A DNA stretch of 42,805 bases, from positions 1 to 42,805 of the forward strand of contig JAPKXU010000221.1 of assembly GCA_026394655.1 (NCBI GenBank). The letters run 5' to 3'. A program made the translations under genes and the position numbers. This DNA comes from Methanoregula sp. Lineage in GTDB: Archaea > Halobacteriota > Methanomicrobia > Methanomicrobiales > Methanospirillaceae. The notes beneath the pieces are model-generated. The model saw nothing but the letters and a program-made list of their open reading frames with translations. It was not told the origin of the DNA and ran no database searches. Positions 6,758 to 17,894 of this stretch are shown in pieces. The first letter of the stretch is position 1. Every line of letters starts with the position of its first letter.

Positions 6758-7396
6758 GTGAAGCTTATAGCTCTTATCTCAGGTGGAATCGACTCTCCGG
6801 TTGCAGCGTACCTCATGATCCGTCGCGGTGTTGAAATTGTGGCAGTTCATATGGACAACCGCCCGTTCACTGATGAGAAAAACCTGGATAAAACTCTCAG
6901 CCTGGTCCGTCACCTCCGGAATCTGACCGGGAGTCCAATCCGTACCTACATAGTACCGCACGGACCTAACCACATCACCTTTGCACGGAAATGTGACCGT
7001 CATCTGCACTGCCTGTTCTGCCGGAGGATGATGTACAGGATTGGTGAACGGATTGCTGAAATAGAGGGTGCTGACGGGATCCTGACCGGTGAGTCGATGG
7101 GGCAGGTGGCATCGCAGACCCTCCAGAACATTATGGTAGTGAACCAAGCTGTGAAGGTGGCGGTCATCCGCCCGCTCATTGGTCTCGACAAGGTCGAGAT
7201 CATCGACATCGCCCGCAGGATTGGCACATACGAGATCTCCACGCTCCCGGGCCTTTGCTGCACCATCGTCCCCAAGAAACCCTCGACAGCAGCAAGGCTT
7301 GGGGATGTACTCCGTGAGGAACAAAAAACCGATATCGAGTCTCTTGTTGAAAAATCTCTGGAAGGGATGCATGTATTCTCTCCTGAAACCCTGTAA
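6758..7396 (+). CDS. ThiI-like sulfurtransferase / thiouridylase ATP-pyrophosphatase domain (no THUMP)
   Basis: MKLIALISGGIDSPVAAYLMIRRGVEIVAVHMDN (SGGIDSPVA PP-loop), RRMMYRIGERIAEIEGADGILTGESMGQVASQTLQNI, CCTIVPKKPSTAA; GTG start. Confidence 0.88.
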   Translation: MKLIALISGGIDSPVAAYLMIRRGVEIVAVHMDNRPFTDEKNLDKTLSLVRHLRNLTGSPIRTYIVPHGPNHITFARKCDRHLHCLFCRRMMYRIGERIAEIEGADGILTGESMGQVASQTLQNIMVVNQAVKVAVIRPLIGLDKVEIIDIARRIGTYEISTLPGLCCTIVPKKPSTAARLGDVLREEQKTDIESLVEKSLEGMHVFSPETL

Positions 7397-7697
7397 AACA
7401 TCGGCTGCGTTCGAAGCAATTCCCGGGGAGCGTTTCAGCCTTGACCTTGACCGTTGTGAGGAGATCCTGAAAAATGTCTGCACGATCGTTGCCCATGCCG
7501 GTATTCTCCTGATCGTGAGCGATCGGTGCGAAGTCTCGATCCACAAGGACGGGCGGCTCGTCCTCAAGACGGATTCAAAGGATCTTGCCTGCGAGCAGGC
7601 CGGACGTATAGCCGGATGGCTTGAAGGAACACCTGCGATTCAGAAGCACCGGGACTGGAGGAATTCCGAGAGGACAAACCCATCTGCAGGAAAATAA
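7371..7697 (+). CDS. Small protein translationally overlapping the ThiI-like gene
   Basis: 108 aa from ATG 7371, overlapping the ThiI-like gene by 26 nt; contains SDRCEVSIHKDGRLVLKTDSKDLACEQAGRIAGWLEG, resembling the tail of the ThiF-like protein. Confidence 0.7.
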   Translation: MYSLLKPCKTSAAFEAIPGERFSLDLDRCEEILKNVCTIVAHAGILLIVSDRCEVSIHKDGRLVLKTDSKDLACEQAGRIAGWLEGTPAIQKHRDWRNSERTNPSAGK

Positions 7698-7743
7698 AGA
7701 GATCAAACGAACAATAACCGGATAAAAGCAGATCTGTCCTGAC

Positions 7744-8814
7744 TTATAATCCGATGTACCGTGCATAAACTGAACGGGCTATGGTCTCGTCCCTGGTGCC
7801 TTTGATGATAGCCCTTCCGTCACGGAATATTGAGATCTCTTCCTTTTCTGACCTGAAAGTGAGCATATACTGGTGAAAGTGTACGTTGCCGAGCCGTGAG
7901 AGCCGGATCTCCAGTTCTTCTAAAGAGATCTCTAAGGGGGTAGCGGGCGTGATCTGGATGGCATCTCTCCCGCAGAGCGAGGTTATCATTTCCCGGGATA
8001 CAGCATCCAAAAAATCCATACGGCCCTCCGTGCAACAGAGGCAGTCTGCCCGTCGCCCGACAGTTATCCGGTCGAACGTGTTCCGCCATCCATCGACCTG
8101 GATAAGGTACGAAGTCTCATCTTTCGCATCGAACTGATCTGTTAGGATCTGGTAGGCAAGGGTACACTCGATGGAGGCGATAAGGGGAGGTACCGTGTTC
8201 AGCACTCCTGCGATGTCGCAGGTCTGCAACAAGCCGGGCCCGGGGAGCGACGGGATAAGGCACCGGAAACAGGGGGTTCTGCCCGGCAGGATGGGCATCA
8301 CCATTCCCCCGGTTCCGACAACTCCGGCATAGATCCAGGGGATCCTGTGCTTTACGCAGACGTCATTTATCAGGAACCGGGTCTGGAGGTTATCGGTCCC
8401 ATCCAATACCACGTCCGCGCCTGTGAGGAGTTTTTCAACATTCGAAACGTTCAGGTCTTTTGCGTGTGTCTCGATTTCGACAGAAGTATTGATCTTTTGT
8501 AAGATCTCGGCAGCAGCAACCGCCTTCGGGCGGCCCAGATCCTCCTCGCTGTACAGGATCTGTCGCTGCAGGTTGTGCAGTTCCACCATATCACGGTCGA
8601 TCAGTACGACCTGTCCGATCCCCGCCCGCACCAAAGAATTCGCGACCGAACTTCCAAGAGCTCCAAGACCAACGATAACTGCCCGGCTCTCTTCGAGTCT
8701 GCGTTGCCCTTCCGCTCCTATTTCGGGAAGGAGTATCTGGCGACAGTAACGATCCCGGGTCCGGTATGGGGAATCCGGAAGTGTCCCGTCATCGGTTCCT
8801 TCAGGTTGTTTCAT
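7744..8814 (-). CDS. HesA/MoeB/ThiF family E1-like adenylyltransferase
   Basis: RYCRQILLPEIGAEGQRRLEESRAVIVGLGALGSSVANSLVRAGIGQVVLIDRDMVELHNLQRQILYSEEDLGRPKA; start MKQPEG at 8814. Confidence 0.93.
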   Translation of the reverse strand: MKQPEGTDDGTLPDSPYRTRDRYCRQILLPEIGAEGQRRLEESRAVIVGLGALGSSVANSLVRAGIGQVVLIDRDMVELHNLQRQILYSEEDLGRPKAVAAAEILQKINTSVEIETHAKDLNVSNVEKLLTGADVVLDGTDNLQTRFLINDVCVKHRIPWIYAGVVGTGGMVMPILPGRTPCFRCLIPSLPGPGLLQTCDIAGVLNTVPPLIASIECTLAYQILTDQFDAKDETSYLIQVDGWRNTFDRITVGRRADCLCCTEGRMDFLDAVSREMITSLCGRDAIQITPATPLEISLEELEIRLSRLGNVHFHQYMLTFRSEKEEISIFRDGRAIIKGTRDETIARSVYARYIGL

Positions 8815-8818
8815 CCGA

Positions 8819-10012
8819 TCATCTCTTGTCCCAGTCCCCCGAAATTTTTTTGACGGTACCAACGAGCAGGTCCGCATCTTCGATCGTATTGTAGCAGTGA
8901 AGGCTCGCCCGGACCGTTCCGTCCGCAAGGTGGAGGTGCTCCATGAGGGGCATGCAACAGTGATGCCCTGACCGCACCATAATATTTGCCTCCCCGTCAA
9001 GCATCATGGCAACGTCATGCGGGTTCAATCCTTTGATTGCAAACGAGATGACCCCGATCCGGTTCCCTGCTGATCCGGGTCCGAAAACCTGCACGTTCCC
9101 AATACTCGTAAGACCTTCGATGATATGCCGGGTAATGTGCTGCTCATGGTGCTGTATATCCTCCATACCGAGCGCTTCCAAATACTCAACAGCACGGGCA
9201 AGACCGATAGCTCCTGCGATATTCGGGGTTCCTGCTTCGTAACGTTCATACCCTCCCGTAAGGGTGTATCCCGCAGCAGTGACCCGATCCACACTCCCTC
9301 CTCCAACGAGCAGAGGTTCCAGGCTGGGGGTCTTCATATATAGGACTCCGGTGCCAGTGGGGCCGAGCATCTTGTGCCCGGAGAAGCAGAGGAAGTCGCA
9401 GCCCAAGCGCTCCACATCCACCGGGATATGGGGCACTGACTGGGACCCGTCAACGAGGAGGAGCGTCCCATGATCCTGACAAATTTTGGCAAACTCGCGA
9501 ATGGGCACGACGTTTCCAAGCACATTGGATGCATGGGTGATGGCAACGAGCCGGGTCTTTTTCGTGATGACTGCCTCGAGGGCAGCCGGATCCAGGGTGC
9601 CATCCTGTGCAGGGGGGATCAGATGGAGATCGATCCCCTGCCGTTCGCGGAGACGCATCCAGGGAAGGAGATTGCTGTGGTGCTCAAGGAGGGTGGTAAT
9701 TACCTGATCTCCTTTCTGCCACGGGAGTCCCGAAGCGACCATATTGATTGCCTCGGTGGAGTTCCGGGTGAAGACCAGTTCTCCCTCTCGTGCATGAATG
9801 AATTTCCTGACCTTCTGGTGGGCATCCCTGTATTTCTGGGAGGTAATCTGGGCAATCCGGTGGACGCCCCGACCGGAATTTGCCCGGAATTTGTGTTCGT
9901 ACTCAAGCATTGCCAGAAGGACAGGTTCCGGCGAGAGACTCGTCGCTGCACTGTCAAGGTAACAGACATCAGAAAGGAGCGGGAAATCCGTCCGGATATC
10001 ACTTGGGATCAT
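8819..10012 (-). CDS. sufS: Cysteine desulfurase, SufS-like class V aminotransferase
   Basis: 397 aa; YLDSAATSLSPEPVL, FTRNSTEAINMVASGL, ITHASNVLGNVVPI, LLVDGSQSVPHIPVDVERLGCDFLCFSGHKMLGPTGTGVLY, VRSGHHCCMPLM. Confidence 0.92.
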   Translation of the reverse strand: MIPSDIRTDFPLLSDVCYLDSAATSLSPEPVLLAMLEYEHKFRANSGRGVHRIAQITSQKYRDAHQKVRKFIHAREGELVFTRNSTEAINMVASGLPWQKGDQVITTLLEHHSNLLPWMRLRERQGIDLHLIPPAQDGTLDPAALEAVITKKTRLVAITHASNVLGNVVPIREFAKICQDHGTLLLVDGSQSVPHIPVDVERLGCDFLCFSGHKMLGPTGTGVLYMKTPSLEPLLVGGGSVDRVTAAGYTLTGGYERYEAGTPNIAGAIGLARAVEYLEALGMEDIQHHEQHITRHIIEGLTSIGNVQVFGPGSAGNRIGVISFAIKGLNPHDVAMMLDGEANIMVRSGHHCCMPLMEHLHLADGTVRASLHCYNTIEDADLLVGTVKKISGDWDKR

Positions 10013-10100
10013 AAAACCTCGCTAAGTGACCCCCAAGAGGAGTTACGAACAGACTTCCTTCCATGATATGAATATCCTGATTATTTTCTGGCATAGACAT
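9999..10100 (-). CDS. Possible 33-aa leader/small protein overlapping the sufS start
   Basis: Minus-strand ORF MSMPENNQDIHIMEGSLFVTPLGGHLARFYDPK* overlaps the first codons of sufS. Confidence 0.25.
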   Translation of the reverse strand: MSMPENNQDIHIMEGSLFVTPLGGHLARFYDPK

Positions 10101-10179
10101 TCAGGCATCCATTTTTTTGTTCTGGACATCGGCTTTCATGGGGGTTGTGTCCCGGATAAGAAACTGGTACAGTATTGAA

Positions 10180-10193
10180 TTCACAATTGTTAA
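10180..10193. promoter_or_regulatory. Operator-like site TTCACAATTGTTAA
   Basis: Near-perfect copy of the recurrent palindrome, 168 bp upstream of the sufS ATG. Confidence 0.6.
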
Positions 10194-10244
10194 TGTTTTG
10201 CTGCGATGCTACTGTATGATTCGGGCATCTCGTAACCGGGGAGT

Positions 10245-11060
10245 TTATGGATTAAAACCTCCGAGAATTTTCTGTTGGATCATCAGGAGTGCGATGAAAA
10301 TAAGCATAATTGCAAAGAATTTTTTGATCTGATCTGCAGGGAACCGGGATGCAACGTATGCCCCGGTATACGCCCCTATTGCAGCACCTGCTCCGTATAT
10401 CGCGACAAACGGCAGCGAGACGTCACCCAGCGCTGCATGGGTTGTAGCACCGGAAAGTGAGGAGAGAATAATGGCAAACAGGGAGGTTGCGACAGCGTAA
10501 TGGACCGGGATTCCGGTTACGACCAGCGCGGGGACAAAGAGCACACCCCCGCTAATACCGGTTGTGCCGCTGATAAGCCCCCCCATCGCTCCCCAGACAA
10601 CAAGATGAAGGTATGGCAACCTTATCCGTTCATCGCTATCACCAGATTTTCGGGCAGACACTTCAACAAAAGCCCCCCATCCGATCTCCCTCACAATACG
10701 GAGATGTGGACAGAGCATCTGCAGGGACATGATGAGTAGCACTATAACAAAAAAGACGACAAGTATACGGGCGTCGATATATGGCGTGATAGCAGAACCA
10801 ACTGCTGCAAAAATAATGGCGGGCACAACCAGCAGGACAGCCGCAGAATACAGGATCTTTCCCTGCCGGTGGTAACAGATGGTTGCAGCAAACGACGAAA
10901 AAACCATCACCGCAAGGCTTGTTCCAACTGCCATCTTCTGGTCAAAACCGAATATCAGCGTTAATGTCGGAACATAAAGAAAACCGCCCCCCAAACCGAT
11001 ACCAGAAGAGATCATGCCGATCCCTGCTGCAATCAAAAACGCGATGCTGTAGCCGTACAC
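10245..11060 (-). CDS. TSUP-family (sulfite exporter TauE/SafE-like) membrane protein
   Basis: YSIAFLIAAGIGMISSGIGLGGGFLYVPTLTLIFGFDQKMAVGTSLAVMVFSS and GLISGTTGISGGVLFVPALVVTGIPVHYAVATSLFAI; likely GTG start at 11060. Confidence 0.88.
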   Translation of the reverse strand: MYGYSIAFLIAAGIGMISSGIGLGGGFLYVPTLTLIFGFDQKMAVGTSLAVMVFSSFAATICYHRQGKILYSAAVLLVVPAIIFAAVGSAITPYIDARILVVFFVIVLLIMSLQMLCPHLRIVREIGWGAFVEVSARKSGDSDERIRLPYLHLVVWGAMGGLISGTTGISGGVLFVPALVVTGIPVHYAVATSLFAIILSSLSGATTHAALGDVSLPFVAIYGAGAAIGAYTGAYVASRFPADQIKKFFAIMLIFIALLMIQQKILGGFNP

Positions 11061-11240
11061 GATGGTTAAATCCTCTTCCAAATTATCCGGTCTGCCATCT
11101 GACAACCATCTGTAAGAAACGTGTAACAGGATGCCGGTACCCTCACATCCCGCCGTTCTATCATTCTGGTTCCGCTGCAGAAGTTGCAGGAGCCGGGGCA
11201 GGCATTCCTCCATTCCGGCTCGCGATCTTCGTCTCCTGCA

Positions 11241-11519
11241 TCAGCCACCGGCAACAAGAGGGGAAACTGCGATCTCGTCACCATCATTAACGCTGACCTT
11301 TTCTACCTCAGTTGTTTCAACCCGTTTTCCGTTCCTCATCAGTATCACGAACTCGCGGAAGTTCTCCTGCTCATCGAAGATCATATTATAGCCTTCTTTG
11401 TTCTTCTGCGCTATTTCCTTCACGAGGGTGGCAAGCGATATGTTCTTTTTTCCATCGACAAGAATATCGGTACCGAGAAGTTCCCGGAACCGTGCGAAAA
11501 ACCGGATTTTGATACTCAT
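11241..11519 (-). CDS. MoaD/ThiS-like ubiquitin-fold sulfur carrier
   Basis: MSIKIRFFARFRELLGTDILVD...VSVNDGDEIAVSPLVAGG; C-terminal Gly-Gly. Confidence 0.87.
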   Translation of the reverse strand: MSIKIRFFARFRELLGTDILVDGKKNISLATLVKEIAQKNKEGYNMIFDEQENFREFVILMRNGKRVETTEVEKVSVNDGDEIAVSPLVAGG

Positions 11520-11879
11520 TTTTTCTTCCTCATCGCAGTCTTTGTTTTCCCTTTCCTGCATACAGGGCTTGCCGGGTTTCGCCCTAAGAGAATCTCCTCT
11601 GCATACACCTCAAACCCGTCCCGGATGATACCCCTCTTCACCAAAAAGTGATATCTGTTGTGGGTGCCGATCGAGTTCGCGGGGGAATAACATGATAGTA
11701 CTTACCTGTGCCTGCTGCCGGTGATATATTCCGAAAAACAACAGCCGGTTTTCAGGAGTCCGTAACTCCACATTTTGTGCGGGCGGTATTTATGGAGTAA
11801 TATCTCGGCAAATTTTTCCTGATCCTGCCGGTTCCGCATTATGATCATTCCGATTCAAGTCCCGTGTACACAATCGGGA

Positions 11880-13250
11880 TCAGATGGCGATCCCATCATT
11901 GTAATGATGGCTTTCCCGGTGGATCTTGCGGATCAGGGATGGTGCAAATATCGCATGTTCACTCACTGGTTGTGAAATATATCCCAGTTCATGAAGGGTG
12001 CGCACAAATTTCATGGTGGATGCAATATATTCCGGTGGCAACGCTGCGCAGTACTTCGGGGAGATACGGTACGTTTCCATGACAAACGATTCATCCACCA
12101 TGCCGGTGGTCTTTGCCACAATGCGGGCGCACGCCACCGGGTCATGGCGGATCATCTCGCTGGCGGCTTCATGCGCTGATAAAAATCCCATCAGCAGGTC
12201 CCTGTTTTCCAGCATCTGCCGCATGACCACGATCCCATAACTCGGATTGAACGGCCAGAGCCGATCGGGCTGCACGACAAGGTGTGTGTTACTATACCTA
12301 CGGGCGGTGACAGCCAGAGCCGGAGTCCCGGCGGCGGCCACTATCTCTTCCTGCTGGAGAGCATCGGAAAGAAAATCAGCCCAAGGATAGTTTTTCACAG
12401 TAACATCCCTCATACCGTGCTCCCTCAGCAGTTCGTTCACGATAACATCGTGGATTGAACCTTTCGGTGGGGTGCCGATAGCCTTACCGGAGAACTGTGT
12501 AAGGAACTCTGACATGCTGCTGTATTCAGCAAGAGGGGTTATCCCCTCCCCGGCTACGATAATTGTTCCCTCAACGTGCCCGCCGGCGATGCAGGCAAGC
12601 GACAATCCGCGATCGATACCGATGATTACCGGGGGGAGTCCGATATATCCAAGGTCGAGGGTCCCGGCCTGCATGGCGTTAATGATGTCAGGACCTGACG
12701 GAAAAAGTTTCCAGCTTGCATCGATCCCACGATCTGCAAGGAGCTGCGTACCCCGAAGCAGGAACGCGGTATGGTACATTGTTGAAAGGTGGCCGATACG
12801 GAGAACGGACAGTTCGGGACGGAGCATCCCGACCGGGATATCTACAATTTTTTCGACGATCGATGCGAGGATTGGTGCACAGATGACGCCGGATGCCCCG
12901 TCTTTCTCTGCCCGTGCAGCGGCAATGATACATTCTTCAAGAGAATTGGCAGAATATCCCCGTATCCCGAATTTTTTTCCCTGGAAATCAACCTCGCGTA
13001 TTTCGAGAGCATCGAGCAGGAATTTTGCAGCGATGATCGCGATGAACCGGTTCCGTTCCGGCTCCAGCACCGCGACGATTTTCTTGATCGTGGAGAGCCG
13101 GGGATCACGTTCACCCAAGGTGATTTTATAGAGCGTGGATACAGGAATGCCGGTGTGATCCGCAAGTTCCCGCACTGTCAGGTTCTTCCTCTCCAGCTCC
13201 TCGTGCAGCGCCGTGGTGAAATCCGTCTCGAAAATCCTCTTTGAGAGCAT
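11880..13250 (-). CDS. HTH regulator fused to an NMT1/SsuA/TauA-like substrate-binding domain
   Basis: N-terminal LTVRELADHTGIPVSTLYKITLGERDPRLSTIKKI (HTH), then RIGHLSTMYHTAFLLRGTQLLADRGI...GTLDLGYIGLPPVIIGIDRG...GGHVEGTIIVA (SsuA/NMT1 type); no signal peptide seen. Confidence 0.82.
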   Translation of the reverse strand: MLSKRIFETDFTTALHEELERKNLTVRELADHTGIPVSTLYKITLGERDPRLSTIKKIVAVLEPERNRFIAIIAAKFLLDALEIREVDFQGKKFGIRGYSANSLEECIIAAARAEKDGASGVICAPILASIVEKIVDIPVGMLRPELSVLRIGHLSTMYHTAFLLRGTQLLADRGIDASWKLFPSGPDIINAMQAGTLDLGYIGLPPVIIGIDRGLSLACIAGGHVEGTIIVAGEGITPLAEYSSMSEFLTQFSGKAIGTPPKGSIHDVIVNELLREHGMRDVTVKNYPWADFLSDALQQEEIVAAAGTPALAVTARRYSNTHLVVQPDRLWPFNPSYGIVVMRQMLENRDLLMGFLSAHEAASEMIRHDPVACARIVAKTTGMVDESFVMETYRISPKYCAALPPEYIASTMKFVRTLHELGYISQPVSEHAIFAPSLIRKIHRESHHYNDGIAI

Positions 13251-13353: not shown

Positions 13354-14157
13354 ATGCGCCGCGAACAGTTCATGGAACTCACCGTTCTTCCCGGCACCAA
13401 CCGGTGCGGGGAGAAAGAAGGGTTCGATCAGATCGTGATTCGTCCGGGTGACACCCTGTCTATCGTTGGGCCGACTGGATCAGGAAAATCTGCATTCATC
13501 AACGATATCGAAGTTCTTGCACAGGAGGATACGGTCACCGGCAGGAGTATTCTTATGGACGGAGTCGAACCTCCCGAAGAAATGGTCCGCGATCCCGCAA
13601 AAAAGCCCATCGCACTTATCTCCCAGAATACCCGTGTCATTGCCGATCTGACTGTCGAACGGTTCCTTGCCCTGCACATAAAGGCACGGGATACCGATAC
13701 GAGGCGGCTTATCGCTCGCACGCTTGCACTTGCGAATGAGTTCACCGGTGAAAAGATTGCATTACCGATGCGCATGACAGCACTTTCCGGTGGACAGGCC
13801 CGGTCGCTCCTCATTGCCGATGCAATCCTGATCAGCCAGACGCCGATTCTGCTCCTCGACGAAGTGGAGAACGCCGGGATCAACAAAGAGCGGGTGATCA
13901 ACTGTATCCGTGATTATAACAAAGCCGTGATCTTTGTCACCCATGACCCATACCTGTCCCTGATAACTGACCGCCGCATTGTGATGAAAAACGGTGCAGT
14001 GGCAGTTATGCTTGAACCCGGTAGCCGTGAACGATCGGTCATTACAAAGGTATCTGGTATGGATTCTTTCCTCTGGGATCTCCGCGAACGGATTCGCAGT
14101 GGAGACCTCATCCAGGAAAGGGAATCTCCCCTAATAAAGATTGGAGTACATGCATGA
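13354..14157 (+). CDS. ABC-type ATPase without an adjacent permease gene
   Basis: GPTGSGKSA (Walker A), LSGGQARSLLIADAIL (signature), PILLLDEVENAGI (Walker B), VIFVTHDPY (H-loop). Confidence 0.88.
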   Translation: MRREQFMELTVLPGTNRCGEKEGFDQIVIRPGDTLSIVGPTGSGKSAFINDIEVLAQEDTVTGRSILMDGVEPPEEMVRDPAKKPIALISQNTRVIADLTVERFLALHIKARDTDTRRLIARTLALANEFTGEKIALPMRMTALSGGQARSLLIADAILISQTPILLLDEVENAGINKERVINCIRDYNKAVIFVTHDPYLSLITDRRIVMKNGAVAVMLEPGSRERSVITKVSGMDSFLWDLRERIRSGDLIQERESPLIKIGVHA

Positions 14158-14861
14158 AGCTTATTATCGTTGCCGGCCCGCCCAGTGCAGGAAAAACCTC
14201 TGTTATCCGCCAGATAATCAAGAAATTCAATAAGACTGATTTGACAGCCTACCTGAAGATTGATGTCGTCAGGGCTTTTGAAGATGAGGAGCTGCACGAA
14301 GAATTCGGCATCCCGACAAAGAAGGTATACTCCGGCGACCTTTGTCCTGATCACATGGGCATCATGGTCCTCAGGGATGCAATCGCTTGGGCTGACGGGC
14401 TCAATGCCAGTATGCTGATCATTGAAAGTGCCGGGCTGTGCCTCCGCTGTACTCCCTATACTACCCAATCGTACGGAATCGCCGTACTGCCTGCAGTATC
14501 CGGCAGCAACTCACCCCTGAAGATGGCACCCCTCATTGCCCTTGCTGATTCGGCAGTCGTTACCAAGACAGACCTCGTCTCACAGGCAGAGAAAGAGGTG
14601 TTCCGGGAATGTATCCGGAGCGTGATTCCTTCTATTGACATCGTTGAGACGAACGCCGTCCAAGGCACCGGTCTCCGTTACCTCCTGAAGGCAATTGCAC
14701 AATACCCGGATATCAGCAATGCAGATACCATCTCGCTCCGTGGGACCCCGCCACTCGGTGTCTGCACCATTTGCGTCGGCAAGAAGGATATCGGGTGGCA
14801 ACACCACTTCGGTGTAATCCGACCACTGGAAGAGGCTGACAACATCTACCGGGGAGACTGA
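14154..14861 (+). CDS. G3E/HypB-CobW-like GTPase
   Basis: MKLIIVAGPPSAGKTSVIRQIIKKFNK (P-loop), LIIESAGLCLRCTPYT, AVVTKTDLVSQAEKEVF; start overlaps the previous stop. Confidence 0.82.
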   Translation: MKLIIVAGPPSAGKTSVIRQIIKKFNKTDLTAYLKIDVVRAFEDEELHEEFGIPTKKVYSGDLCPDHMGIMVLRDAIAWADGLNASMLIIESAGLCLRCTPYTTQSYGIAVLPAVSGSNSPLKMAPLIALADSAVVTKTDLVSQAEKEVFRECIRSVIPSIDIVETNAVQGTGLRYLLKAIAQYPDISNADTISLRGTPPLGVCTICVGKKDIGWQHHFGVIRPLEEADNIYRGD

Positions 14862-14864
14862 TCC

Positions 14865-15488
14865 ATGGTGGCATGGATTCCCCCGGGAAAGGACTGCGGT
14901 GCCTGCGGTTTACCGACCTGTGAGGACTTTAATAAGGCAGTGAAAAGGAAGAAAAAAACCAATGAAGACTGCACATTCTACACAAAGGACCCGTCCGGAC
15001 ACAGGGAGAGACCTCAATACTCAGGTACTGATGTAACCGGGGCAAAGTATGATTTTATCATCAGGGCATTTCCCGGTGAACCTTCAGCACGTAAATTTAT
15101 CGTTCCGTTCCGTGCGGATCTGGTGGAGAAATGGGACATCCGGGCAGGGGATCTTGTCACCGGAAGACCGGCTGGACCGGGATGCCCGCTCTACCATGCG
15201 TTGAGGGTCCTTTCGGCCAACCCGATCACCGGTGTCCTCGAATGCCACACGGTCGGACCGCTCGAAGCCCGGAAGGAGCAGGGGGGGGTGCACGATGTTC
15301 AGGCATATCATGTCCATGCTTTCGAAGGTATCGCTGAGACCGTCATCCGCCCACCGACCATCGGTCTTCGGCAGCGATTCCTCCCCGGCTATTGTATGAT
15401 CGATCTCTCGCATACTGCACTGGTGAACATGGTACTTAAGAAAAAAGAAGGACTCCATGTGCGTGTCGAGGATATCCGCATTATCTGA
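14865..15488 (+). CDS. (4Fe-4S)-binding domain protein
   Basis: N-terminal GKDCGACGLPTCEDFNKAVKRKKKTNEDCTFY resembles the CGxCGxxxC Fe-S domain of corrinoid/CODH proteins; remainder not recognised. Confidence 0.75.
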   Translation: MVAWIPPGKDCGACGLPTCEDFNKAVKRKKKTNEDCTFYTKDPSGHRERPQYSGTDVTGAKYDFIIRAFPGEPSARKFIVPFRADLVEKWDIRAGDLVTGRPAGPGCPLYHALRVLSANPITGVLECHTVGPLEARKEQGGVHDVQAYHVHAFEGIAETVIRPPTIGLRQRFLPGYCMIDLSHTALVNMVLKKKEGLHVRVEDIRII

Positions 15489-15496
15489 ACAGCCCC

Positions 15497-16771
15497 ATGA
15501 TACCCAAGTACCGGATCCGGTGTGCCGGAGGGGGCGAGCGGGTGGAGGATTTCACCCTCCAATCCTGCCCTTACGGACACGACTCTCTCCTCAGGACTGA
15601 GTACTGCAGCAGGAAACTGCACCTCGCACCTTACACGGGGATCTACCGGTACCTGGCATGGTTGCCGGTCAACACCCCGCTCCTCCCATCCGGAGGCCCG
15701 GTCACCTTCACGAACGATGAACTCTCCCGCGAGCTCGGGCTCTTACGGCTTTCGGTTTCCTTTTCAGGCTATTTTCCCGAGCGCGGGGCGGATCTGACCA
15801 CCGGCTCATTCAAGGAACTGGAGGCATCGCCCACCATGCAGCGGCTACGGGAGATGGGAGGGAAGATCCCGGTGATTGCTTCAGCCGGCAACACGGGCAG
15901 GGCATTTGCTGAATTCTCCGCCCGTTGCCGGCAGCCGGTCGTTATTGTAATCCCGGAGAAGGCGGTTCCCCGTCTCTGGACAACAGAGCCGGCTCAGGAC
16001 ATTTTCCTTGTCGCTGTCAAAGGGGATTACGCGGATGCAATCGCCGTGAGCAATATTCTTGCCGCAGTCCCCGGATGCGTTCCGGAAGGCGGGGCAAAGA
16101 ACGTAGCCAGGCGGGACGGTATGGGTACCGTGATGCTTGACGCTGTTGTTACCACGGGCAGGATCCCCGATCATTATTTCCAGGCAGTGGGGAGCGGAAC
16201 CGGGGCAATTGCAGCATGGGAAGCCGCGATGCGGCTCATCCGCGATGGGTCATACGGGACAATACTGCCCCGGCTCCACCTTGCCCAGAATGAGCCCTTC
16301 ACACCCTTAGTCTCTGCCTGGGTGGCAAAACGGCGTGAGATCATTCCTGCGGAGGATATGCCCGATGCGGCGGAGAGCATCGGGAAAGTCATGTCAGATG
16401 TATTAACGAACCGGAACCCGCCGTACAGTATCCGGGGAGGTCTCTTCGATGCACTTCAGGAGACACGGGGACACATGTACAGCGTCCCGAACGCGGAAGG
16501 TGCGGATGCTGAGAAGCTGATCCGGGAGACCGTGGGGATAGATCCCGATCCCGCGGCTGCCATCGCCACCGCAGCGCTTGTCCAGGCAATAGAAAAGGAT
16601 ATCATCGGGCATGACGATCATATTCTCCTGAACCTGACGGGCGGGGGATACGAGCGGATCCGTGAGGATTTTACCCTGCATATGGTCAGCCCTGCCGTGG
16701 TCATCCGCCCGGATGAACCGCGGGAATTTCTGGTAACAAAACTCAGGGGGTGGATCGCACGCCATGGATGA
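15497..16771 (+). CDS. Cysteate synthase (threonine-synthase-like PLP enzyme)
   Basis: GSFKELEASPTMQRLREMGGKIPVIASAGNTGRAFAEFSARC, YFQAVGSGTGAIAAWEAAMRL; overlaps the ComDE gene, as expected for the Methanosarcina-type CoM route. Confidence 0.87.
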   Translation: MIPKYRIRCAGGGERVEDFTLQSCPYGHDSLLRTEYCSRKLHLAPYTGIYRYLAWLPVNTPLLPSGGPVTFTNDELSRELGLLRLSVSFSGYFPERGADLTTGSFKELEASPTMQRLREMGGKIPVIASAGNTGRAFAEFSARCRQPVVIVIPEKAVPRLWTTEPAQDIFLVAVKGDYADAIAVSNILAAVPGCVPEGGAKNVARRDGMGTVMLDAVVTTGRIPDHYFQAVGSGTGAIAAWEAAMRLIRDGSYGTILPRLHLAQNEPFTPLVSAWVAKRREIIPAEDMPDAAESIGKVMSDVLTNRNPPYSIRGGLFDALQETRGHMYSVPNAEGADAEKLIRETVGIDPDPAAAIATAALVQAIEKDIIGHDDHILLNLTGGGYERIREDFTLHMVSPAVVIRPDEPREFLVTKLRGWIARHG

Positions 16772-17894
16772 AAACCAGATTATTGCTGAATTAAAAGAAC
16801 AAGGAATAGACCTTGTCAGTGCAATCCCCTGCGACCGGGCAAAGGGGCTCTTCTTCAAGCTGCCGGAGGAGTTCCAGTATATCGGTCTGACCCGGGAAGA
16901 GGACGGTGTCGGTATCTCCGCGGGGGCATATCTTGCCGGTGCACGACCGCTGATCGCGCTCCAGAGTTCCGGTCTCGGGAATATGTTGAATGCCATCCTT
17001 TCCCTCACCGCTACCTTCGGTCTGCCGCTCCCGATCCTCGCAAGTTGGCGTGGCGGGGAAACCGAGGTGATCCCAGCCCAAATCCAATTCAATCGCCCGC
17101 TTCACAGGATCCTGTCGGCTGCAGCGATCCCATATACTATCCTGTCTGATCCTGACAGGCCGGAGGTAATCGGGAAGGCTGTTTCTGATGCGTTCGTTAA
17201 GAAGACACCGCATGTCATCCTCATCCCTCATGGCAGCCTCCAGGAAACTTCGTGCAGTGCAGCCGGTTCTTCCCCCAAAAACCTCCGTCCGTTTGCCTGC
17301 TGCTATGAGCGGGACTGGCGCACGCCGGTAATGACCCGTTTTGATGCCATCAGGATGATTGCCCACCTCGTAACCAATGAAGTGCTGGTCTCGAATATCG
17401 GTATTCCTTCAAAGGAACTTTATGCAGTAAACGACCGCGATGAAAATTTCTACATGCTGGGAAGTTATACCCAGGCTTCGGCAATTGGCTTGGGTATTGC
17501 CACAGTCCGGCCGGATAAACGGGTGATCGTTCTGGACGGAGACGGCAGTCTCCTCGGTTCATCCATCCTTCCCGTAATTGCTGCTGCAGCACCAGAAAAT
17601 CTCATGATTGTCGGGCTTGACAATGGGGTCTTTGGCAGTACCGGCAACCAGCCCCGACCAGGCTCCGATACCGCAGATCTCCGGCTGATGGCAATGGGCG
17701 CGGGGTTTGAACAAACCTGGACCGTACACGAGCCGTGGGAACTGGAGGCAGCAATGTATGCTTCGTCCCGGACCGGACCTTCGTTTATCCACGTCCGGAT
17801 CAGTCCCGGGAACCGTGACGTCCCAAATATTCCCCTCAGCCCATCAGAGATACGGGACCGGTTCCGGTCAGTATTGACATCTTCGCATGGATGA
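16764..17894 (+). CDS. comDE: Sulfopyruvate decarboxylase, fused ComD-ComE subunits
   Basis: N-terminal DLVSAIPCDRAKGLFFKLPEEFQYIGLTREEDGVGISAGAYLAGARPLIALQSSGLGNMLNAILSL (ComD-like); C-terminal GDGSLLGSSILPVIAAAAPENLMIVGLDNGVFGSTGNQ (ThDP-binding ComE-like). Confidence 0.9.
   Translation: MDENQIIAELKEQGIDLVSAIPCDRAKGLFFKLPEEFQYIGLTREEDGVGISAGAYLAGARPLIALQSSGLGNMLNAILSLTATFGLPLPILASWRGGETEVIPAQIQFNRPLHRILSAAAIPYTILSDPDRPEVIGKAVSDAFVKKTPHVILIPHGSLQETSCSAAGSSPKNLRPFACCYERDWRTPVMTRFDAIRMIAHLVTNEVLVSNIGIPSKELYAVNDRDENFYMLGSYTQASAIGLGIATVRPDKRVIVLDGDGSLLGSSILPVIAAAAPENLMIVGLDNGVFGSTGNQPRPGSDTADLRLMAMGAGFEQTWTVHEPWELEAAMYASSRTGPSFIHVRISPGNRDVPNIPLSPSEIRDRFRSVLTSSHG

Follow-up and report, generated by a model that had tools for sequence, protein, structure and literature searches.

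A conserved ATPase, GTPase and Fe-S protein gene trio linked to coenzyme M biosynthesis in methanogens and shared with bacteria

What do an ABC ATPase, a GTPase and an Fe-S protein do next to the genes for coenzyme M (CoM) biosynthesis? The question is raised by a 42,805-nt stretch of Methanoregula DNA (the window), in which genes for these three proteins lead into those for cysteate synthase and a fused ComDE sulfopyruvate decarboxylase (Table 1). The ABC and GTPase ORFs share 4 bp (ATGA), spacings of 3 bp and 8 bp separate the Fe-S gene from the GTPase gene and from cysteate synthase, respectively, and the ComDE gene overlaps the end of cysteate synthase (16764 vs 16771). An earlier note on this DNA had described three tightly packed genes upstream of cysteate synthase, as these junctions confirm. 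Since cysteate synthase and ComDE share the operon of the trio, the locus belongs to the cysteate synthase route to CoM. The order ABC-GTPase-Fe-S recurs at nearly all of about 66 archaeal loci and at most of the 79 loci from a genome-wide scan, so the arrangement is not due to chance. Nor is the linkage to CoM new, because it already appears in the Fig. 2 legend of Chadwick et al. (2025, PMC12068725), according to which genes for an ATPase, a “Ni2+ binding GTPase” and a COG2000 Fe-S protein, of unknown role, are often colocalised with CoM biosynthesis genes. The window trio apparently corresponds to these three genes. The main text of that paper does not describe where the trio occurs beyond methanogens, does not analyse its residues and does not treat trio-bearing lineages that lack ComF.

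Table 1. Genes of the window's CoM operon and its neighbourhood.
Feature	Coordinates	Strand	Matches and remarks
Lone ABC ATPase, 267 aa	13354..14157	+	Pfam ABC_tran, 55 bits
HypB/UreG-like G3E GTPase, 235 aa	14154..14861	+	Pfam cobW, 43 bits; NCBIfam hypB, 57 bits
Fe-S protein, 207 aa	14865..15488	+	PF04060, 36 bits, residues 7-38; remainder without match
Cysteate synthase, same operon as trio	15497..16771	+	TIGR03844, 612 bits
ComDE sulfopyruvate decarboxylase, fused alpha + beta, same operon	16764..17894	+	TIGR03845 and TIGR03846 above cut-off
Divergent regulator, XRE-type HTH + SsuA/NMT1-like sulfonate-binding domain	11880..13250	-	Kept beside window-type trios, 10 loci
MoaD/SAMP-like sulfur carrier	11241..11561	-	Context; possible partner
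Class-V aminotransferase / cysteine-desulfurase-like protein	8819..10012	-	Context; possible sulfur source
ThiF/MoeB-like E1 enzyme	7744..9000	-	Context; true start inside ORF

Is the ABC protein part of a transporter? Its Walker A, LSGGQ, Walker B and H-loop motifs are intact in the window, and the catalytic motifs are present in 136 of 136 homologues. Its family match is generic (ABC_tran), and it scores far under the cut-off of every NCBIfam family listed. A generic match of this kind, together with the SsuA-like domain encoded next door, would fit an uptake ATPase for sulfonates or CoM with its permease encoded elsewhere. However, no permease family recurs near the locus (none clusters in at least 5 of the best 80 loci of the scan), and the ABC gene is tied to the GTPase and Fe-S genes across phyla. 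Fusion to an HTH makes the SsuA-like domain a probable part of a cytoplasmic regulator. A role in uptake is thus very improbable, and the earlier note's view of a lone ABC ATPase in a trio that is not a transporter stands. The XRE-HTH/SsuA-NMT1 fusion, encoded divergently from the trio in about nine genomes with the window type, is a candidate cytoplasmic sensor of sulfonate or CoM that would regulate CoM synthesis. Also adjoining the CoM operon is a sulfur-transfer gene set (6758-11561) for ThiI-like, ThiF/MoeB, cysteine-desulfurase-like, TauE and MoaD-like proteins; four other trios (L035, L116, L117 and L119) likewise have MoaD and ThiF-like genes nearby.

The other two proteins are marked by invariant cysteines and histidines. 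In the GTPase, C64, H67, C96, C99, C204, C207 and H218 are the same in 142 of 142 aligned sequences, and in the Fe-S protein this holds for C11, C14, C19, C36, C107, H111, C177 and H183 (138 of 138). Judged by sequence, these residues resemble metal ligands. The GTPase has cobW/HypB-like family matches, a G3E fold and nucleotide motifs, and its predicted model matches the folds of HypB and UreG. The Fe-S protein combines an N-terminal [4Fe-4S] motif (C11, C14, C19 and C36) with a beta-rich second domain that bears the other four invariant residues, which are predicted to cluster. The short PF04060 motif is the protein's only family match, and its N-terminal four cysteines account for its sole sequence similarity to solved structures (4djd, 1.8e-7); the model is confident (mean pLDDT 89.5) and matches no PDB fold at E 0.001.

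How strong is the link to CoM? Phyletic profiling against ComDE, a check that the earlier note had suggested, shows that the trio tracks ComDE. Across the phylum, in an even draw of 384 genomes with the Fe-S gene as trio marker, ComDE is found in 101 of 106 genomes with the Fe-S gene versus 90 of the other 278 (Fisher p about 4e-32, kinship ignored). Within the window's family, the trio is present in 14 of 14 ComDE genomes versus 3 of 19 others (p about 1e-6, kinship ignored). A com gene lies no more than 6.5 kb away at 55 or more of the 66 archaeal trio loci, a set drawn via the trio rather than at random. Two arrangements account for the operons, with the taxon words for surveyed genomes here and below (Methanosarcina, Methanomicrobia) assigned from gene content and a ComF control: many Methanomicrobia of the window's taxonomic order have ABC-GTPase-FeS-ComF-cysteate synthase-ComDE, and a second, distant set in Methanosarcinia reads cysteate synthase-ABC-GTPase-FeS-ComD-ComE(-ComF). 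Trio and com genes have also decayed jointly, in an eroded CoM operon of the closed genome G004 (locus L223), where the ABC gene is broken in two and the GTPase gene reduced to a stump, next to what remains of ComDE. The link between the trio and CoM in methanogens is real. MCR, Mtr or another CoM-using enzyme was rejected as the client because CoM non-makers of the window's family, as judged by ComDE rather than mcr, mostly lack the trio. At four loci (L109, L111, L112 and L114), stand-alone trio copies without com genes adjoin genes for secreted proteins, and two of the genomes concerned (G212 and G359) have neither ComDE nor ComF.

Which step of CoM synthesis is involved? In M. acetivorans, CoM is made primarily by MMP16, or ComF, and loss of MMP16 leads to CoM auxotrophy when sulfide is absent (PMC12068725). 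In most Methanomicrobia relatives, comF is inside the operon directly after the trio; the HcyBio/COG1900 and ferredoxin protein encoded between the Fe-S gene and cysteate synthase scores as MMP16. Several Methanosarcina and two ANME-like genomes pair the trio with ComF without cysteate synthase or ComDE at the same locus, and several Methanosarcina-like genomes have the trio with a second ComF copy, apart from cysteate synthase and ComDE. Such pairs indicate the ComF step. The trio therefore tracks the CoM pathway, with the last step as its apparent closest partner. The late CoM step suggested in the earlier note is favored by the operon that the trio shares with cysteate synthase, ComDE and ComF, by its co-loss with ComDE and by the trio-ComF pairs. 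That note had called the step unassigned, which no longer applies to M. acetivorans, now that ComF is its primary synthase, and still applies to several closed genomes of the window's genus. There, ComF (TIGR03287) has no match above cut-off in four closed genomes (G017, G280, G302 and G344), nor in the window's own genome (G000, 82% complete), and all five have lower-scoring COG1900 matches alone (about 150-165 bits). The four closed genomes keep the trio, cysteate synthase and ComDE despite the absence of ComF.

The relationship with ComF is not exclusive in either direction. The ComDE genomes in the 384-genome draw comprise 91 with trio and ComF, 10 with the trio and no ComF, 63 with ComF and no trio, and 27 with neither. 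As the last two groups show, CoM synthesis does not generally depend on the trio; nor is the trio purely an accessory of ComF. These counts bear on two alternative explanations. First, the trio could be a dedicated maturase or reactivase of ComF/COG1900, either inserting the Fe-S centre of this synthase or activating it by reduction. The position of comF directly 3' of the trio in most Methanomicrobia and the Methanosarcina pairs argue for this, but the 63 genomes that have ComF without the trio and the 10 that have the trio without ComF argue against it. Moreover, COG1900 is not the client of the module in general, since 43 of the 47 non-methanogen genomes with the trio lack any COG1900 protein. 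A strict maturase of this kind is weakened on both counts, and the explanation is rather unlikely. Second, the trio itself could be an alternative CoM synthase that converts sulfoacetaldehyde to CoM in place of ComF, with MoaD or NifS as the source of sulfur. This would account for the 10 ComF-less genomes, four of which are closed and from the window's genus, and for the MoaD and ThiF-like genes near some ComF-less trios. However, most trios coexist with ComF, 27 ComDE genomes have neither, and trios unlinked to CoM genes would have no use for sulfoacetaldehyde. L-ASST may also stand in for ComF (PMC12068725), and a synthase formed by the trio is a decidedly doubtful proposition. In 80 hand-picked genomes, no CoM maker was without both ComF and the trio; as a general rule, this was discarded because of the 27 ComDE genomes with neither (e.g., G077, G349 and G376). 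Those genomes may encode unrelated decarboxylases or use another route to CoM.

Is the trio restricted to CoM makers? When species genomes were scanned with a profile of the GTPase, at least 578 relatives came up, and the best 80 of these were examined. Almost all of these best 80 are bacterial, with 58-67% identity to the ANME-type query, and their hosts include Omnitrophota, Acidobacteria, Chloroflexi, Bacteroidota, Planctomycetota and Pseudomonadota, among others, with Rhodoblastus sphagnicola and Thioalkalivibrio denitrificans as cultured carriers of the trio; com genes were found near none of these loci except the ANME query locus. Bacterial trios without CoM genes rule out a CoM-specific system, and the earlier note, which had itself named a wide distribution unlinked to CoM as evidence against its proposal, was mistaken on this point. 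Full GTPases are encoded at 79 of the best 80 of at least 578 loci, with the ABC gene in 75 and the Fe-S gene in 73. A NifS-type cysteine desulfurase gene is near 34 of the 79, mostly between the GTPase and Fe-S genes, and is not beside more than half of the CoM-unlinked loci in this set. Among the same best 80 of at least 578, a gene for an Rrf2-family (CymR/IscR-like) regulator is upstream at 22, CysK is near 9, and MetX and MetW are near 4. One archaeal locus of bacterial type (L119) has NifS, SsuA-HTH, ThiF, MoaD, ABC, GTPase, NifS and Fe-S genes on one strand. Occurrence is patchy (5 of 97 genomes in one phylum and 4 of 200 in another, centre genomes counted in), and a plasmid search gave one match, at 39%, in Fusobacterium. 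A GTPase tree rooted on a paralogue has three groups, namely CoM-linked GTPases of Methanomicrobia, those of the unlinked loci and CoM-linked GTPases of Methanosarcinia; the first two are closer together, and the two CoM types are distant and non-sister. In the freely accessible literature, nothing was found on the four-gene system beyond PMC12068725.

These gene neighbors also bear on whether the trio handles metal or sulfur. A Ni, Co or Zn insertion machine, similar to HypAB or UreEFG and serving some metalloenzyme, would be consistent with the fold of the GTPase, which is nearest to HypB and UreG, and with a divergent GTPase'-ABC' pair that adjoins DUF4213/DUF364 genes (“putative heavy-metal chelation”), in some cases with FecCD-type uptake genes. 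Nevertheless, the metal cysteine motif of HypB is shifted or replaced in the trio GTPase, many unlinked loci are flanked by NifS, Rrf2/CymR-like and cysteine or methionine genes, and CoM non-makers in the window's family mostly lack the trio. Metal insertion is accordingly unlikely. In view of the same absence from family non-makers and of the NifS and cysteine/methionine genes of the bacterial loci, activation of a corrinoid or Ni enzyme, the other role offered in the earlier note, finds no support here. The divergent pair (L055-L062) is paralogous, about 37-43% identical, and has no Fe-S gene; apparent mtr genes are neighbors in some genomes.

The trio is best read as a non-transport, NTP-driven module of the sulfur/Fe-S type that is common to methanogens and bacteria, which supports the energy-dependent Fe-S or metal-type machine of the earlier note. 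More specifically, with a probability of roughly 45%, the trio would be the methanogen branch of a widespread sulfur/Fe-S delivery module driven by NTP, serving CoM, most likely at thiolation. Gene neighbors are the basis for preferring sulfur over metal. The substrate, direction, acceptor and role of each NTPase in the following scheme are inferred. The Fe-S protein would be the scaffold, with its [4Fe-4S] domain handing on electrons and C107/H111/C177/H183 in its second domain binding a persulfide or a metal-sulfide unit. Metal would be loaded or gated by the HypB-like GTPase via its Cys/His sites, and a dimer of the ABC ATPase would drive assembly or release. The NifS cysteine desulfurase encoded between the GTPase and the Fe-S protein would provide the sulfur in bacteria and a few archaea; most methanogen trios lack NifS, presumably because sulfide is available. 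Methanogens would use the module for CoM, most likely for sulfoacetaldehyde thiolation. In lineages with ComF, it may supply sulfur or a cluster to ComF, and in ComF-less lineages such as that of the window the acceptor may be a second COG1900 protein or the nearby MoaD-type carrier.

What are the implications? First, three CoM neighbors of “unknown role” can be placed in a conserved system that many bacterial lineages also have. Second, the invariant residues are targets for mutation. Third, some methanogens apparently make CoM precursors without the known CoM synthase, making the source of the CoM thiol directly testable.

How does the trio compare with known systems? The N terminus of the Fe-S protein shares its four-cysteine motif with the [4Fe-4S] domain (PF04060) of the CFeSP large subunit and RnfB, whereas its second domain matches no PDB fold. 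The GTPase resembles HypB and UreG in its predicted fold (2hf8, TM 0.68/0.76), its P-loop and a Cys at the position of the HypB CHLD motif. However, it scores below the NCBIfam hypB cut-off (56.8 vs 121.2 bits), has CPDH and ESAGLCLRC in place of the HypB metal motifs CHLDA and ENVGNxVCP, carries an additional C-terminal CxxC and His, and is partnered with the ABC and Fe-S proteins rather than HypA. By analogy, SUF and SMS (SufBC, SmsBC) are similar in combining a soluble ABC ATPase with a scaffold and sometimes a cysteine desulfurase. They differ in that no SufB-type scaffold was detected in the trio, where the Fe-S protein has PF04060 alone and no PDB fold match, and in that the trio additionally has a HypB-like GTPase. 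It is possible, and we suggest it tentatively, that the trio, with NifS as an optional fourth member, is a sulfur/Fe-S biogenesis system in its own right, distinct from ISC, SUF, NIF, MIS and SMS. Such a system would occur patchily in many phyla of bacteria, and methanogens would have recruited it on at least one occasion to build the thiol of CoM.
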